Assembly: GCF_002118315.1 (NCBI RefSeq)
Contig: NZ_MTSZ01000006.1
Coordinates: forward strand, 62,001-126,000
Length of the DNA stretch: 64,000 nucleotides
Direction: 5' to 3'
Origin: Kiloniella majae
GTDB lineage: Bacteria; Pseudomonadota; Alphaproteobacteria; Kiloniellales; Kiloniellaceae
Under the pieces are notes generated by a model that was given only the letters and a program-made list of their open reading frames with translations, was not told where the DNA came from and made no database searches. Below are positions 45,375 through 52,297 of the stretch, piece by piece. Each line of letters opens with the position of its first letter. Positions within the stretch are counted from its first letter, which is position 1. Position numbers and translations under genes: made by a program.

Positions 45375-47159
45375 ATGTTTTCTTTCACTTATCAATTTTC
45401 CAGACAGGTATTGGGGGGGTGGATCTTTGTTATTGTAATCGGCAGTCTGTCGATCTGGTTGGCAAATTATTGGCTAGGGGCATCTACGGCCCTTGAATTA
45501 AGAAAAACGTCCATAGAACGATTGAGCCTGTATGAGGCAACGCTTCTCGGGGAGTTGGATAAATATCGTTATCTTCCTTTTGTTTTGTCCGGAAACGAAG
45601 ACGTTAAAGAGTTACTGACAACATTTCAGGATGATACCTATTTTGCCAACAAAGTTAGCCAATCCCTTGCTGAGACAAACAATAAGGCCGAAGCCAATGT
45701 TCTCTATATCATGGATAAAAAAGGAAATACGTTAGCTTCTTCAAACTGGCAGGACGAGACAAGTTTTGTTGGGCATAACTATTCGTTCCGACCTTATTTT
45801 CAGGATGCCATAGAAGGTCGAGAAGGTCGTTTCTTTGCGATTGGAACGATATCGGGAATACCCGGTTTCTTTATGTCTCATCCAGTATACGAAGACAGTA
45901 GTATTATTGGGGCCGCGGTTGTTAAAGTAAATTTGACCCCATTGCAACAGCAATGGAATGATGGCGGAGAAAATGTTTTCATAACAGATGGAAATGGTGT
46001 GATCTTTTTGGCCAGTAAAAAAGATTGGCTCTACAAAAGCTTGCGGCCTATTCCCTCAAAACAGCTACAAAAGCTTCATCAAATCAGGCAATACGGCGCC
46101 TCAAATTTTGATATCCTTGGCACCAATCACGTCAGTGTCGCGGGCGATTTGGCAACAGAAATTGAAGGCAACGGGTATCTTGAGACGAAGCAGGATATTG
46201 CAAATACAGACTGGAAAATTCATTACCTTGTGTCAGTAAGTCCAATTACAGAAAACCAACGGACCATCGTCGCAATTGGAATTGGCGTTATTGTAACATT
46301 GCTTGTACTGGCCCTGTTTATAAGAGAAAGACGTCAAAAGGTTATTTCAACTCGCCGTGCATTAGAAGCGGAAAAAATGGAGGATATGAACCGGCAGCTT
46401 GAAATAGAAATAGAAGAGCGTAGACGAACGGAAAAAGAGCTCAGAGCTGCACAGGACGGGTTGGTTCAAGCGGGTAAGCTTGCTGCGCTTGGGCAAATGT
46501 CAGCAGCAATTGCCTATGAAATAAATCAACCGATTGCTGCTATTCAAAATGATGTTTCAAACTGTGTAACCTATCTTAAAGATGAAAATGATCAGGAGCT
46601 TAACAGCTCTTTGACCGAGATTTCGTCTTTGACGGAAAAAATGGGGATGATTACAGCACAATTGAAAAATTTTGCTCGAAAATCTTCAATGAAAATCCGA
46701 CCAATTGATGTTGTAAAGGCCATAAACAGAGCGGGACATTTGATGCAACCCGTTTTAAAAGCACGATCCGTTCATCTTGAGATTAGCACTGCTCCAGAGG
46801 CAATGCTAATATCCGGGGATGAAATCAGGCTAGAACAGGTTTTTGTTAATCTGTATCGAAATGCAGTTGATGCTATGAAATTCATCAAAGATGAAAAGAT
46901 CATATCAATCAATGCATTTGTTATAGATAATCAGGTTAATGTAACTGTATCTGATACAGGAACAGGTCTTGAAGACCATGTTTTAAACAAGCTCTATGAC
47001 CCCTTCTTTACCACAAAATCAAATAGTGAAAGCTTGGGGCTTGGCCTGTCGATTACCTATGGCATTATAAAAGACTTAAAGGGCGAGATACAGGCGTCTA
47101 ATAATCCAGATGGCGGAGCTTGTTTTGTTCTGTCTTTTCCCCGTCATATAGAAAAGTAG
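45375..47159 (+). CDS. dctB: DctB-like sensor histidine kinase with Tyr at the phosphoacceptor site
   Basis: 594 residues. TM1 (about 14-33), a periplasmic PDC/Cache sensor for dicarboxylates, and TM2 (about 297-315) are followed by a coiled coil (EAEKMEDMNRQLEIEIEERRRTEKEL) and HisKA and HATPase domains. The H-box reads LGQMSAAIAYEINQP, where DctB proteins have ...AHEINQP, so the phosphoacceptor His is Y381 (codon TAT at 46515-46517). The ATP-binding N, G1 and G2 boxes look intact (NLYRNAVDAM, SDTGTGLED, SLGLGLSI). The gene lies 9 bp before dctD. If the Tyr is real, normal autophosphorylation would fail. Confidence 0.92.
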   Translation: MFSFTYQFSRQVLGGWIFVIVIGSLSIWLANYWLGASTALELRKTSIERLSLYEATLLGELDKYRYLPFVLSGNEDVKELLTTFQDDTYFANKVSQSLAETNNKAEANVLYIMDKKGNTLASSNWQDETSFVGHNYSFRPYFQDAIEGREGRFFAIGTISGIPGFFMSHPVYEDSSIIGAAVVKVNLTPLQQQWNDGGENVFITDGNGVIFLASKKDWLYKSLRPIPSKQLQKLHQIRQYGASNFDILGTNHVSVAGDLATEIEGNGYLETKQDIANTDWKIHYLVSVSPITENQRTIVAIGIGVIVTLLVLALFIRERRQKVISTRRALEAEKMEDMNRQLEIEIEERRRTEKELRAAQDGLVQAGKLAALGQMSAAIAYEINQPIAAIQNDVSNCVTYLKDENDQELNSSLTEISSLTEKMGMITAQLKNFARKSSMKIRPIDVVKAINRAGHLMQPVLKARSVHLEISTAPEAMLISGDEIRLEQVFVNLYRNAVDAMKFIKDEKIISINAFVIDNQVNVTVSDTGTGLEDHVLNKLYDPFFTTKSNSESLGLGLSITYGIIKDLKGEIQASNNPDGGACFVLSFPRHIEK

Positions 47160-47168
47160 ATCGTATAA

Positions 47169-48566
47169 ATGGCACAGTTAGAAGAGCAAAATGATCAAGC
47201 CGCTATTGATGGCCCGGTTATCCTTATTGATGATGAAAGAGCAATAAGAGTTTCGACAAAACAATGGTTGGAATTGGCCGGACATAATGAAATAGACGAT
47301 TTTCAAGATGCTCGATCTGCGCTGGAAAACTTGAATTGGCATTATCAGGGGATCGTGATTTCCGATGTTAAGATGCCAGGTATGGATGGGCTTTCTCTAT
47401 TAAGGGAGATTAAGAACATCGACGCCAATATTCCTGTGGTATTGGTAACAGGGCATGGGGATGTTTCTATGGCCGTTGAAGCGATGAGAAATGGCGCCTA
47501 TGATTTTATTGAAAAGCCTTTCGAGCCGGAACATTTGCTGGATATTGTTCGAAGGGCGTTAGAAAAACGCGCGCTTGTTCTGGATAACCGCGCTCTCAAA
47601 CGTGACCTTGTTGCTGCGGAAGGTCTGGATGCCCGCTTGGTTGGTGCTAACCCTATTATGCGCGCTCTTAAAAGAGATATTATTGATATTGCGCCGACAA
47701 GTGCTTCCATTCTTATTCAGGGAGAAACAGGTAGTGGTAAAGAGGTTGTTGCCAGTTGTCTGCATGAATTTGGTGAAAATCCAAGTGGAAGTTTTGTAGC
47801 TGTTAACTGTGCCGCTATTCCAGAGCAAATGGCTGAAAGTGAATTTTTTGGACATGAGAAAGGCGCGTTCACGGGGGCACAATCCAGACGAGTGGGGAAA
47901 TTGGAAGCGGCAAATGGTGGTACTTTGTTCCTTGATGAGTTGTCATCCATGTCAATGGATTTACAAGCAAAACTATTAAGAGCGCTCGAGGAACGCAAAG
48001 TTACGCCATTGGGCGGAAATGTTGCAAAATCGGTTCAGTTCCGATTAATAGCCGCCCTTCAGGAACCGCCCGAAGAAGCGATTGCCTCTGGACGATTACG
48101 CGAAGATCTTTATTACCGTATCGCGACCTTTGTTATGGCAATCCCCCCTCTTCGGGCGCGTAAAGATGATTTACCTATTTTATTCAGACTTTTAGCAAAA
48201 CGTGCGGCGGAAACCTTTGGGCGTGAAATCGAAATGCCTGGCCCCGAAGGTATCGCAAGTCTGATGGCACATAATTGGCCGGGAAATGTACGGGAACTCA
48301 GGAATGCTGCTGAACGCTATGCACTGTCTACCCGCCCACCTGAAGAAAAACTTTCGATCATTTTAAATAGCGAAAAAGAAAGTCAGGTTAAAACATCCTT
48401 GCCCCTTATTGAGCAAGTCAGATTATTTGAGCGAAATGTAATCCTTGCATCTTTGGATCGACATAAAGGTAATGTATCTGCTGTTATGGAAGAGCTTTCT
48501 ATTCCCAGGCGTACACTGAATGAAAAAATGGCCAAATATAATCTAAAAAGAAGTGACCACGAGTAA
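47169..48566 (+). CDS. dctD: DctD-like sigma-54-dependent response regulator
   Basis: 465 residues. The receiver domain has acceptor D66 in VISDVKMPGMDG and K116 in EKPFEP. The AAA+ domain has Walker A GETGSGKE (185-192), the sigma-54 contact motif GAFTGA (232-237), Walker B GGTLFLDELSSM and the sensor-type DLYYRIATFVMAIPPLR. The C-terminal Fis-type HTH is GNVSAVMEELSIPRRTLNEKMAKY. All parts needed to activate sigma-54 are present. Its obvious target is the promoter at 48692, directly upstream of dctP. Confidence 0.96.
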   Translation: MAQLEEQNDQAAIDGPVILIDDERAIRVSTKQWLELAGHNEIDDFQDARSALENLNWHYQGIVISDVKMPGMDGLSLLREIKNIDANIPVVLVTGHGDVSMAVEAMRNGAYDFIEKPFEPEHLLDIVRRALEKRALVLDNRALKRDLVAAEGLDARLVGANPIMRALKRDIIDIAPTSASILIQGETGSGKEVVASCLHEFGENPSGSFVAVNCAAIPEQMAESEFFGHEKGAFTGAQSRRVGKLEAANGGTLFLDELSSMSMDLQAKLLRALEERKVTPLGGNVAKSVQFRLIAALQEPPEEAIASGRLREDLYYRIATFVMAIPPLRARKDDLPILFRLLAKRAAETFGREIEMPGPEGIASLMAHNWPGNVRELRNAAERYALSTRPPEEKLSIILNSEKESQVKTSLPLIEQVRLFERNVILASLDRHKGNVSAVMEELSIPRRTLNEKMAKYNLKRSDHE

Positions 48567-48691
48567 AGATTATCAATAAATTCGGCGGATTTTCGCCGAT
48601 TTCCAGTTTTGCTTTCGGCAAGGTTCTGCTAGTCGCAATGAGCGTATTCTAATTTTGTAATATATATCAGCTGGTTATAAAAACACTAAAT

Positions 48692-48707
48692 TGGCACGAG
48701 CTTTGCT
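48692..48707 (+). promoter_or_regulatory. Sigma-54 (RpoN) promoter of dctPQM
   Basis: TGGCACG (48692-48698), four bases, then TTGCT (48703-48707) match the -24/-12 consensus, with the GG and GC doublets 12 bases apart. Transcription would begin near 48718, about 83 bases before the dctP ATG. Confidence 0.93.
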
Positions 48708-48800
48708 GTTACACTTGTTGGTAATGAGTGATCGTTATCTACAAAATTCTTTGTAGTTTCTGTTTATAAAAAATAAAAATTATCCTATGGGAGGATACTC

Positions 48801-49781
48801 ATGCGTAAACTTACTCTTCTTATGGCAGCGGCAGGCGTTGCACTTTCAGCTTTTGCTGCACAGGCTGAACCTATCATCATCAAGCTTAGCCATGTTACAA
48901 AAGAGACAGGCCATCCAAAGGGGGAAGCTGCTGCGCTTTTTGCCAAACGTGTTAATGAAGAATTAGCAGGTAAGGTAGAGGTTCAGGTTTATCCAAATTC
49001 AACTCTTTATAATGATGACAAGGCTCTGGAAGCTCTTCTTCTTGGTGATTTGCAAATGGCTGCACCTTCGCTTTCGAAGTTTGAAAAATATACAAAAAAA
49101 TATCGCATTTATGATTTGCCGTTCCTGTTTGATAACATTCAGGCTGTTGATCGTTTCCAAAATAGTGAAAAAGGTCTAGAGCTTCTTGGTGCTATGGAAG
49201 ATCGCGGCCTTCGTGCACTTGGCTATTGGCATAATGGTATGAAGCAGATTTCTGCAAACAAGCCACTGATTAAGCCTGAAGATGCTGAAGGTTTGAAGTT
49301 CCGTGTTCAAACATCTGATGTATTGGTTGCGAACTTCAAAACTCTTGGTGCCAACCCGCAAAAGATGGCGTTTAGTGAAGTTTATGGTGCCTTGCAGCAG
49401 GGTGTTGTTGATGGACAGGAAAATACTTGGTCAAATATCTACACCAAAAAATTCTACGAAGTTCAGGATGGAATTACAGAGAGTAACCATGGGATTCTTG
49501 ATTACCTAATCGTAACATCATCTGAATTCTGGGATGGTCTTCCTGCTGATATCCGTGGCGACCTAGAGCGTATTCTCGCTGAAGTATCCCAGGAGCGTAA
49601 TTCGATTTCTGCAGAAATCAACCAGGCCAATAAACAAAAAGTTATTGATGCTGGTGGTGTTGTCCGTACCCTAACAGCAGAGCAAAAAGCTGAATGGCGT
49701 AAAAAGCTTGCACCTGTCTGGGAAGAATTCACAGGTGACATTGGTCAGGATATGATCGATGCAGCCCTGGCTTCAAACTAA
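48801..49781 (+). CDS. dctP: C4-dicarboxylate TRAP transporter solute-binding protein
   Basis: 326 residues. The Sec signal (ending AFAAQAEP, about residue 22) is followed by the DctP fold: IIKLSHVTKETGHPKGEAAALFAKRVNEELAGKVEVQVYPNSTLYNDD, GLRALGYWHNGMKQISANKPL, and GLKFRVQTSDVLVANFKTLGANP, where the conserved Arg binds the substrate carboxylate. A GGGAGGA box lies 6 bases before the ATG. Succinate, fumarate or malate are the likely ligands, given the adjacent dctB-dctD. Confidence 0.95.
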   Translation: MRKLTLLMAAAGVALSAFAAQAEPIIIKLSHVTKETGHPKGEAAALFAKRVNEELAGKVEVQVYPNSTLYNDDKALEALLLGDLQMAAPSLSKFEKYTKKYRIYDLPFLFDNIQAVDRFQNSEKGLELLGAMEDRGLRALGYWHNGMKQISANKPLIKPEDAEGLKFRVQTSDVLVANFKTLGANPQKMAFSEVYGALQQGVVDGQENTWSNIYTKKFYEVQDGITESNHGILDYLIVTSSEFWDGLPADIRGDLERILAEVSQERNSISAEINQANKQKVIDAGGVVRTLTAEQKAEWRKKLAPVWEEFTGDIGQDMIDAALASN

Positions 49782-49820
49782 TCCAAGTTTGACCTGAAAA
49801 TCGTTTGATTTCTCAAATAT

Positions 49821-49853
49821 AGGGGCTTGCTGGCAGCAGTTAAGCCCCTTTTA
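49821..49853 (+). promoter_or_regulatory. Intercistronic hairpin between dctP and dctQ
   Basis: An 8-bp stem AGGGGCTT / AAGCCCCT (49821-49828 with 49842-49849) with a 13-base loop is followed by TTTTATTATC. It is a plausible partial terminator 40 bases after dctP and 25 bases before dctQ. Confidence 0.72.
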
Positions 49854-49873
49854 TTATCTGGAAGCAAAGTCCC

Positions 49874-50416
49874 ATGAGCAAATTCATTACGCAAATTGAG
49901 GAAAGCTTCATCTCCCTACTTATGGCAGCGATGGTCTTGGTCACCTTTTCGCAAGTCGTAGCTCGGTATGTTTTTAACAGCGGGGCTTTGTGGGCGTTGG
50001 AGTTAACGACCTATCTATTCGCATGGCTTGTTATTTTTGGTATCTCCTATGGCGTGAAGACCCACATCCATATCGGCGTGGACGCCTTTGTTAAGCTTTT
50101 CAAGACACCCGTACAACGGCTATTTGGTTTGTTGGCTGTTATAGCCTCTATCATCTATGGCGGGATCATGTTTTACGGTGGTTGGATCTATGTGGGTAAG
50201 TTGAAAAAAATCGGCATTGAAACCCACGATATGCCAATTCAAAAATGGTTATTTCTATCTATCCTTGTCATTGGAATGGGGTTGGTGATTTTCCGTTTAC
50301 TTCAAGCTTTTTGGAACATCCTCACTGCAAAAGATGATTTCTCGATCCTTGGGGATGAAAGCAAGGATGCTATCGAGCAGTTTATGGATGACGATAAGAG
50401 CGAGGAACAAAAATAA
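49874..50416 (+). CDS. dctQ: TRAP transporter small permease DctQ
   Basis: 180 residues with four TM helices. The DctQ hallmarks are VTFSQVVARYVFNSGALWALELTTYLFAWLVIFGISYGVKTHIHIGVDAFVK. The acidic C-terminal tail (DDDKSEEQK) is unusual but harmless. The stop codon overlaps the dctM start (TAATGG), giving translational coupling. Confidence 0.94.
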   Translation: MSKFITQIEESFISLLMAAMVLVTFSQVVARYVFNSGALWALELTTYLFAWLVIFGISYGVKTHIHIGVDAFVKLFKTPVQRLFGLLAVIASIIYGGIMFYGGWIYVGKLKKIGIETHDMPIQKWLFLSILVIGMGLVIFRLLQAFWNILTAKDDFSILGDESKDAIEQFMDDDKSEEQK

Positions 50417-51777
50417 TGGCTATTCTTGTTCTCTTTACGCTATTGTTCCTCTTACTTTTGGTGGGAACGCCTATTGCATTTTCTCTTGGTTTGGCAAGCC
50501 TGACAACGATCATTTTCTTTTCAAATGATTCCCTTGGCTCCATATCTCTCAAGTTTTTTGAGACAATGGAACACTATACGTTGTTGGCTATTCCTTTCTT
50601 CATCCTTTCATCTGCCTTTCTTTCGACAGGTGGTGTTGCTCGACGATTAATACGTTTTGCGATGGACTGTGTGGGACACTTGCAAGGTGGTATGGCAATG
50701 GCATCGGTTTTGGCCTGTATGCTATTCGCTGCTGTTTCAGGTTCATCCCCGGCAACAGTTGTTGCGATTGGCTCTATCGTTATTGCTGGGATGCAAAAAG
50801 CTGGCTACTCAAAAGAATTTGCTGCTGGTGTTATCTGTAATGCGGGCACGCTTGGTATTCTCATTCCCCCATCTATTGTAATGGTGGTTTATGCAGCGGC
50901 AACTGATGTATCTGTTGGTCGTATGTTTATGGCAGGTGTTATCCCAGGTCTTATTGCCGGCTTAATGCTGATGATTGGTATTTATGTCGCCGCACGGGTT
51001 AAGAAGCTCCCTCGTCTTCCAAAAGCATCTAGTGCGGAAGTTTTTGCTGCCTTTGGTGATGCGATTTGGGGGCTGATGCTAATCGTGATTATTATGGGCG
51101 GTATTTATGGCGGTGTTTTCACACCAACCGAAGCAGCTGCTGTTGCCTCTGTCTATGCTTTTGTTATTGCTGTATTTGTCTATCGGGATATGGGACCACT
51201 TAAAGGGCGTGATACTTCTGAGTTAGCAGTTAGTGATTATTTGATCGCCATTCCTAAGAGTGTGTTTGATGCGGATGTTCGTAAAACCATTTTGGAAGCA
51301 ACTAAAGTAACAATCATGTTGCTGTTCATTGTGGCCAACGCGATGTTGTTTGCGCATGTGCTGACAACGGAGCGTATTCCACAAACCATAACCAATGCTA
51401 TTCTAGAAGCAGGCCTTGAGCCTTGGATGTTCCTGATTGTTGTGAACATTCTCTTGCTTATCGCCGGGAACTTTATGGAACCATCAGCGATCTTGTTGAT
51501 TATGGCACCTATCTTGTTCCCGATTGCCATGCAACTTGGTATCGACCCAATTCATTTGGGCATCATCATGGTTGTTAACATGGAAATTGGCATGATTACA
51601 CCACCCGTTGGTCTCAATCTCTTTGTGACAGCAGGTATAACGGGAATGCCAATTCTCAAAGTAGTAAAGGCAGCTTTGCCTTGGTTGATGATTTTGCTGG
51701 TCTTCCTGATATTGATTACCTATGTACCTATCATCTCTACTTTCTTGCCGGATCTTGTATACGGTGCACAGAAATAG
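50416..51777 (+). CDS. dctM: TRAP transporter large permease DctM
   Basis: 453 residues, about 12 TM helices. Conserved segments include HYTLLAIPFFILSSAFLSTGGVARRLI, LACMLFAAVSGSSPATVVAIGSIVIAGM, GTLGILIPPSIVMVVYA, EPSAILLIMAPILFPIA and MEIGMITPPVGLNLFVTAGI. It is the sodium-coupled channel subunit that works with DctQ and DctP. Confidence 0.96.
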   Translation: MAILVLFTLLFLLLLVGTPIAFSLGLASLTTIIFFSNDSLGSISLKFFETMEHYTLLAIPFFILSSAFLSTGGVARRLIRFAMDCVGHLQGGMAMASVLACMLFAAVSGSSPATVVAIGSIVIAGMQKAGYSKEFAAGVICNAGTLGILIPPSIVMVVYAAATDVSVGRMFMAGVIPGLIAGLMLMIGIYVAARVKKLPRLPKASSAEVFAAFGDAIWGLMLIVIIMGGIYGGVFTPTEAAAVASVYAFVIAVFVYRDMGPLKGRDTSELAVSDYLIAIPKSVFDADVRKTILEATKVTIMLLFIVANAMLFAHVLTTERIPQTITNAILEAGLEPWMFLIVVNILLLIAGNFMEPSAILLIMAPILFPIAMQLGIDPIHLGIIMVVNMEIGMITPPVGLNLFVTAGITGMPILKVVKAALPWLMILLVFLILITYVPIISTFLPDLVYGAQK

Positions 51778-51853: not shown

Positions 51854-52297
51854 ATGGAAATGACAGGTCGCTATATAATAAACGCACCTAGAGACAAGGT
51901 GTGGACAGCGATGAATGACCCGCAGGTTTTAAGACAGGCTATTCCTCGGTGTGACGAAGCTATCCGTCATTCGGATACAGAATTTACAGCGGTCTTTTCT
52001 TTTAAGTTAGGTTTTATCAAACCACGGTTGGAAAGCCTGATTTCCCTATCAGATATTGATGCGCCGAATTCGTATGTCATGACGGCTGAGGGTAAGGGGA
52101 AACTCGCAGGGTTAGCCAAAGGACAAGCAAATGTAACTCTTCATACCCAAGAGGAGGATAAAACCCTATTGGAGTTTCATGCCAGCGGAGATATGCAGGG
52201 AACAATAGCAGAGATGGCTTCCAAACTGGTGACAAAAACCGCGCAAAGGCTTGCCGATGATTTTTTTACGCGGTTTGATGAGGTGGTGAGCAGATAG
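51854..52297 (+). CDS. CoxG-like SRPBCC family protein
   Basis: 147 residues of a SRPBCC fold: MEMTGRYIINAPRDKVWTAMNDPQVLRQAIPRCDE is the CoxG (carbon-monoxide-dehydrogenase subunit G) signature, followed by GKGKLAGLAKGQANVTL and a C-terminal helix (MASKLVTKTAQRLADDFFTRF). In carboxydotrophs CoxG anchors or matures CO dehydrogenase, but no coxLMS genes are present here, so the role is open. Confidence 0.88.
   Translation: MEMTGRYIINAPRDKVWTAMNDPQVLRQAIPRCDEAIRHSDTEFTAVFSFKLGFIKPRLESLISLSDIDAPNSYVMTAEGKGKLAGLAKGQANVTLHTQEEDKTLLEFHASGDMQGTIAEMASKLVTKTAQRLADDFFTRFDEVVSR

Follow-up and report, generated by a model that had tools for sequence, protein, structure and literature searches.

A DctB-type sensor of Kiloniella with tyrosine at the phosphoacceptor position: a probable histidine pseudokinase beside an intact paralogue

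Background

To our knowledge, fixed natural histidine pseudokinases of the DivL kind are few. DivL of Caulobacter is the best-studied natural representative with tyrosine at the phosphoacceptor position: a HisKA-type protein with Y550 in that place, described as having neither kinase nor phosphatase activity (PMC4211667). The sensor analyzed here, DctB1-Tyr of Kiloniella, likewise has a conserved tyrosine at this position. However, DivL acts in the cell cycle and binds ATP weakly, whereas DctB1-Tyr is a DctB-type nutrient sensor that is accompanied by a histidine-bearing paralogue and whose nucleotide-binding motif residues are mostly kept (with Ser for Gly at 553).

With the S. meliloti DctB/DctD system the Kiloniella locus shares the dCache sensor (2zbb/3e4o), the adjoining DctD and paired sites that fit the R. 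meliloti DctD site; it differs by the absence of the phosphoacceptor His from DctB1-Tyr, by a second DctB encoded elsewhere and by TRAP transporter genes downstream. In ChrS/HrrS of C. glutamicum, one sensor is catalytically dead and a paralogous kinase phosphorylates its regulator, but that sensor owes its state to a CA-domain frameshift acquired during laboratory evolution, whereas the Kiloniella change is natural, fixed and located at the acceptor residue (PMC9491836). Native ChrS and HrrS heterodimerize; the truncated ChrS pseudokinase showed no significant heterodimer, which speaks against the heterodimer considered below for DctB1-Tyr (PMC9491836). The streptococcal FasB and FasC are also two sensors for one regulator, appear to heterodimerize and have been proposed to include a pseudokinase; there, however, one partner can do without its kinase domain but not without its His, while DctB1-Tyr has lost the acceptor and kept the kinase domain (PMC12675982). 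Our literature searches found no published Tyr-type DctB in titles or abstract openings among the matches listed, and one such search found no mention of Kiloniella among the matches listed.

Results

The DctB1-Tyr gene and residue 381

The window is a stretch of 64,000 nucleotides from Kiloniella majae (contig NZ_MTSZ01000006.1, positions 62,001 to 126,000). The sensor gene and its parts are the following:

45375-47159, + strand: dctB1-Tyr, a 594 aa open reading frame for a membrane sensor with dCache sensor, DHp and HATPase domains
45552-46223, + strand: dCache sensor domain, kin of the S. meliloti DctB sensor (2zbb/3e4o), with Y136, R139, T158, S160 and K184
46515-46517, + strand: TAT codon of Y381, the phosphoacceptor position
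46545-46589, + strand: residues 391-405, end of helix alpha-1 and hairpin turn, the expected regulator-docking segment
46818-47054, + strand: ATP-binding region (N, G1, F and G2 boxes; residues 482-560), in which G555 and G557 are retained and position 553 is Ser

The periplasmic sensor is of the DctB type (match to 2zbb/3e4o with E about 1e-30). The H-box reads LGQMSAAIAYEINQP, with tyrosine at 381 in the place of the phosphoacceptor His, and the TAT codon given in the earlier note is borne out. In an alignment with FixL-type kinases from the PDB, their His falls on Y381. The protein scores 18.2 bits with Pfam HisKA and misses the gathering score of 26.9 (two His orthologues: 33.5 and 33.4; one DctB2, the paralogue described below: 33.1), while HATPase_c is present with its N, G1, F and G2 boxes. 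Position H+4 is Gln385, without the Thr/Asn typical of HisKA phosphatases; this Gln is invariant in 15 DctB-type proteins (alignment A2).

An AlphaFold model (mean pLDDT 73.7, below 50 across 345-378) was used only to place residues 391-402 in helix alpha-1 and 403-405 in the turn. Helix alpha-1 (353-402 in the model) contains no His, so that another His as acceptor, which the earlier note named as a refuting result, is rejected; all other DctB-type relatives read have His at this position.

Spread and origin of the tyrosine

Nine genomes of the marine genus Kiloniella were searched, the window's own included, and eight of them contain a dctB1 orthologue; in the ninth (77% complete) the orthologue was not found. 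The comparison of this codon across close relatives, which had been proposed along with the original observation, gave Tyr in five of the eight orthologues (G000, G001, G004, G005 and G007; TAT in every case) and His in three (G002, G003 and G008). With the same residue in five genomes, Tyr381 is not a read error, and a single-strain lesion is ruled out as well; the loss of the canonical phosphoacceptor is common to all five members of the clade.

H-boxes could be read in 33 of the 35 DctB-type loci listed (5 Tyr, 28 His). In a midpoint-rooted tree of 32 of these 33 proteins, in which all five Tyr rows were among seven flagged for unusual composition, the Tyr proteins are set apart by a branch with 100/100 support and have the His protein of G008 as their neighbour. 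The stem of the Tyr clade is long (0.65), but in these species DctB2 likewise has a longer branch than in the sister. A search with a DNA pattern encoding Y-E-[FILM]-N-Q-P and three more residues gave hits in 2 of 385 genomes of the class, both of them Kiloniella; with His instead of Tyr the pattern hit 9 of 41 genomes. On the sequences compared, Tyr381 is rare in its motif context, fixed in its clade and of single origin.

Selection and conservation

Pairwise dN/dS for DctB1 within the Tyr clade is 0.05-0.09 in nine of ten pairs (the tenth is saturated) and 0.012-0.025 for DctD in the same pairs, i.e. DctB1 is less constrained than DctD, although such tests are limited by the five Tyr species and by near-saturated synonymous sites. 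Averaged across the full-length protein, pN/pS comes to 0.159 for the Tyr clade, compared with 0.243 for the three His orthologues and 0.211 for six DctB2 proteins. By these measures the DctB1-Tyr gene is under purifying selection. Identity to the window's proteins across the Tyr clade is 79-88% for DctB1, 95-97% for DctD and 98-99.7% for DctP (97.6-99.7% for DctP and DctM together); the sensor thus evolves far faster than the adjoining transporter under its control (45375-51777).

Conservation is unevenly distributed along the protein. Within the same five species, all ten columns from H+1 to H+10 are kept in DctB1 as well as in DctB2, the sensor domains are about equally conserved (179 of 245 columns in DctB1 vs 182 of 245 in DctB2), and the ATP domain keeps 87 of 148 columns in DctB1 vs 98 of 148 in DctB2. 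The statement that the ATP-binding boxes are intact holds in part: the N, G1 and F boxes are kept in the Tyr proteins together with G555 and G557, but next to the G2 glycines, at position 553, each of the five Tyr proteins carries Ser where the nine His proteins compared all have Gly. This replacement, and the smaller number of columns kept than in DctB2, disfavor a fully working ATP domain. One further clade-specific His, H535 (46977-46979), is shared by all five Tyr proteins and absent from the nine His proteins aligned; it belongs to the ATP domain, where it falls between boxes G1 and F.

The rewritten segment 391-405

The nine His proteins used for comparison (three DctB1 and six DctB2) share 219 constant columns; at 29 of them every one of the five Tyr proteins departs, with nine of the 29 in 381-405. 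In residues 356-390 only one of 26 His-invariant columns is changed in the Tyr proteins, namely H381 itself, while in 391-405 the change affects eight of nine in all five (hypergeometric P 3e-7, with the limits of the segment set after looking). Residues 391-405 are expected to be a part of helix alpha-1 that docks the response regulator. Across 392-405, the same five species keep 4 of 14 columns in DctB1 vs 13 of 14 in DctB2 (Fisher P 0.001 in a four-species version of the comparison), and the segment is variable among the Tyr species themselves.

The changed positions include H+11 and H+12, which by count from the His correspond to L254 and A255 of EnvZ, two of the three positions swapped in the conversion of EnvZ to RstB specificity (PMC2991266). 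In the same paper, alanine substitution at most of the specificity residues of EnvZ, among them A255, did not greatly affect transfer to OmpR, hence the docking changes in DctB1-Tyr need not abolish binding (PMC2991266). Drift in the segment could also signal a new partner. On the regulator side, just two fixed changes, I42V and R79K, separate the DctD receivers of Tyr and His species, and both are conservative.

The paralogue DctB2 and its locus

Each of the eight genomes encodes a second protein of this type, DctB2, which is 44-48% identical to the window's DctB and keeps the His. Its gene precedes a TAXI-type TRAP operon, and searches of the 10-18 kb stretches that contain it in all eight genomes detected no receiver domain at E <= 1e-3 (downstream side only in G008, where DctB2 lies close to the edge of its contig). 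A second close DctD that could serve DctB2 is ruled out, with none detected in any of the eight genomes at E <= 1e-60. Sensor positions 158 and 160, which we take to contact the ligand, are Thr/Ser in all eight DctB1 and Ala/Thr in all eight DctB2 proteins; the two sensors may therefore read different ligands. Tyr and His species are separated by 30 fixed differences in DctB2 and by 46 in DctB1. Six of the 30 in DctB2 lie in the 35 residues of helix alpha-2, the densest region; these alpha-2 changes may or may not compensate for DctB1.

In G000 and G004 a second dctPQM-like TRAP set is located between dctB2 and the TAXI operon (L048:8097-16978 in the window's own genome), and no dctP was found at the DctB2 locus of G001, G002, G003, G005, G007 or G008. 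Given its presence in only two of the eight genomes, the set apparently reflects a later insertion or a loss. The genome also encodes a third HE[IL]NQP kinase (L003:229-2289, 686 aa, HELNQP) with a different segment after the His and a long N-terminal domain, presumably CHASE2-like (a guess by eye); no regulator gene was found in the 3.8 kb stretch that contains it. A SpeE-like gene near DctB2 in G001 (L051:10496-11646) aligns in three pieces, for which a frameshift, an assembly error or an over-long query start are possible reasons.

DctD and its predicted targets

Downstream of the sensor gene, the window contains the following features (no strand is assigned to the two sites):

47169-48566, + strand: dctD, NtrC-type response regulator; acceptor D66 at 47364-47366
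48582-48599: predicted DctD-type site 1, a palindrome centred 101 bases upstream of the -24 element
48618-48629: predicted DctD-type site 2, a core centred 68 bases upstream of the -24 element
48692-48706, + strand: sigma-54 promoter of dctP (-24/-12), TGGCAC-N5-TTGC
48801-51777, + strand: dctP, dctQ and dctM, TRAP transporter genes
51854-52297, + strand: CoxG-like (SRPBCC) gene, beside dctPQM in seven of eight genomes (the contig of the eighth ends in dctP)

The DctD that adjoins the window's dctB has a sigma-54 domain. Its acceptor Asp and the sigma-54 promoter of dctPQM are indeed intact, as originally claimed: D66 and K116 are identical and the acidic pair is invariant in all eight Kiloniella DctD proteins, and the promoter elements are in place. 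The gene order dctB-dctD-dctP-dctQ-dctM is found in seven of eight genomes, the G008 contig stopping inside dctP. Every genome has one close DctD (88-100% identical to the window's, E <= 1e-60); other matches at this threshold are 35-39% identical over most of the length, apart from six partial matches to the AAA domain (45-47%).

Paired sites with the core GCRRN4YYGC occur at -101 and -68 from the -24 element in 16 of 16 dctP and TAXI promoters of the eight genomes. The density of the core, 4.6e-4 per base, corresponds to a chance of about 2e-7 per promoter, with the core itself defined after looking at these promoters. A search of the eight whole genomes for a sigma-54 promoter combined with site 2 returned 14 matches (eight dctP and six TAXI promoters), none outside the dctP and TAXI promoters and none in the reversed control; the G002 and G003 TAXI promoters were missed because their -24 element is TGGCGC. 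In these pattern searches the TAXI operon is the only other operon found with a DctD-type site and a sigma-54 promoter. The core also agrees with TGTGCGgaaatCCGCACA, the DctD site of R. meliloti as given in PMC11077940. The shared promoter architecture and this fit indicate that one DctD most likely serves both operons, with DctB2 as its likely kinase; we consider it very likely that DctD binds these sites and receives phosphate from DctB2. The suggestion that another kinase drives DctD has thereby gained good indirect support, DctB2 being a His-bearing protein encoded beside the TAXI operon with no receiver gene found nearby.

Discussion

We read the whole, with somewhat more confidence than doubt, as a fixed histidine pseudokinase in a two-sensor, one-regulator network, in which DctB2 would be the source of phosphate and DctB1-Tyr a modulator. 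DctB1-Tyr retains its sensor, the helix before the His position and the ATP-binding domain, with the predicted docking face rewritten, and would not be phosphorylated at the canonical site. DctB2, with its His and ancestral docking residues, would pass phosphate to the single close DctD, which would in turn control two transporter operons, dctPQM beside DctB1 and TAXI-TRAP beside DctB2. The ligand signal of DctB1-Tyr would most likely enter the system by way of DctB2, for instance with DctB1-Tyr as its heterodimer partner. This last step, more weakly inferred, we regard as plausible but a little short of probable; a partner acting through DctB2 fits the retention of the sensor, the pre-His helix and most of the ATP boxes along with the loss of the acceptor and the change of the docking face. 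A special form of it, in which DctB1-Tyr (sensor and working ATP domain, no acceptor) phosphorylates the DctB2 His in trans as a "one-armed" heterodimeric kinase, is somewhat unlikely; the change of the residue beside the G2 glycines in all five Tyr proteins counts slightly against it. With both acceptor and docking face lost in one subunit, the heterodimer would in that form be obligatory for the DctB1-Tyr signal. The excerpt of PMC4077058 holds no statement on cis versus trans phosphorylation in DctB.

The phosphatase-only sensor proposed in the earlier note could take the form of a ligand-controlled phosphatase for DctD~P that opposes the kinase DctB2, a bifunctional sensor thus being split in two. 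The ATP boxes largely kept in DctB1-Tyr agree with this, and EnvZ with Tyr at H243 reportedly keeps its phosphatase activity (work of Hsing and Silhavy from 1997). Moreover, CrdS H371A keeps most of its phosphatase activity, the half-life of CrdA~P being 2.6 min vs 0.7 with the wild type and 53.5 without CrdS (PMC3510030). Nonetheless, we judge this explanation unlikely: it is weakened by the alpha-1 docking end, rewritten and variable while the DctD receiver has only its two conservative fixed differences, and by Gln at H+4, since CrdS needs Asn there and its N375Q variant is without measurable phosphatase (PMC3510030). In HK853 the acceptor His260 itself helps to hold the catalytic water (PMC5727384), and DivL, with Tyr in this place, is described as having no phosphatase activity and as stabilizing DivK~P (PMC4211667). 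DivL in turn suggests that DctB1-Tyr could be a reader, which would bind DctD~P or some other regulator and pass its signal on through conformation, or that it has switched to a new regulator; an alphaproteobacterial pseudokinase with Tyr at the same position and such a role is a precedent (PMC4211667), and the docking residues of DctB1-Tyr are changed. This is distinctly improbable in view of the largely kept ATP boxes, as opposed to the weak nucleotide binding of DivL (PMC4211667), and of DctD being the only regulator seen beside DctB1.

The faster divergence of DctB1 relative to DctD and DctP could be taken for the decay of a leftover gene with loss of induction by its ligand, but the frame is open in five species with the low dN/dS reported above, H+1 to H+10 are invariant and the sensor is about as conserved as that of DctB2, which makes decay very improbable. 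The earlier idea that this strain has lost dicarboxylate induction is likewise not supported, because Tyr is fixed in five species in which gene, regulator and promoter are kept. Phosphotyrosine is a poor phosphate donor to Asp, and phosphorylation of Tyr381 itself, with the phosphate handed on, seems to us scarcely credible. The adjoining E382, kept in all five Tyr proteins, would speak for it, its CrdS counterpart being needed for kinase but not for phosphatase activity (PMC3510030); DivL, however, is described as showing no autokinase activity with its Tyr (PMC4211667). As to DctD working unphosphorylated with a partner such as the IIAGlc protein, the Vibrio vulnificus DctD provides a precedent (PMC11077940), but in Kiloniella the acceptor Asp, the Lys and the acidic pair are invariant in eight of eight DctD proteins and every one of the eight genomes encodes a DctB2 with its His, leaving this a highly improbable account.

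Returning to the two-sensor network, a second, intact sensor appears from the comparison of genes and promoters to have taken over the driving of the shared regulator. If the trans-phosphorylating heterodimer were true, two ligands would be combined before one DctD switches two transporter operons. Within the single genus Kiloniella, the same gene occurs with His in some species and with Tyr in others, in an unchanged gene order, together with a His-bearing paralogue, a single close regulator and two predicted target promoters, so that the question of how a sensor keeps its job after losing its acceptor becomes directly testable.
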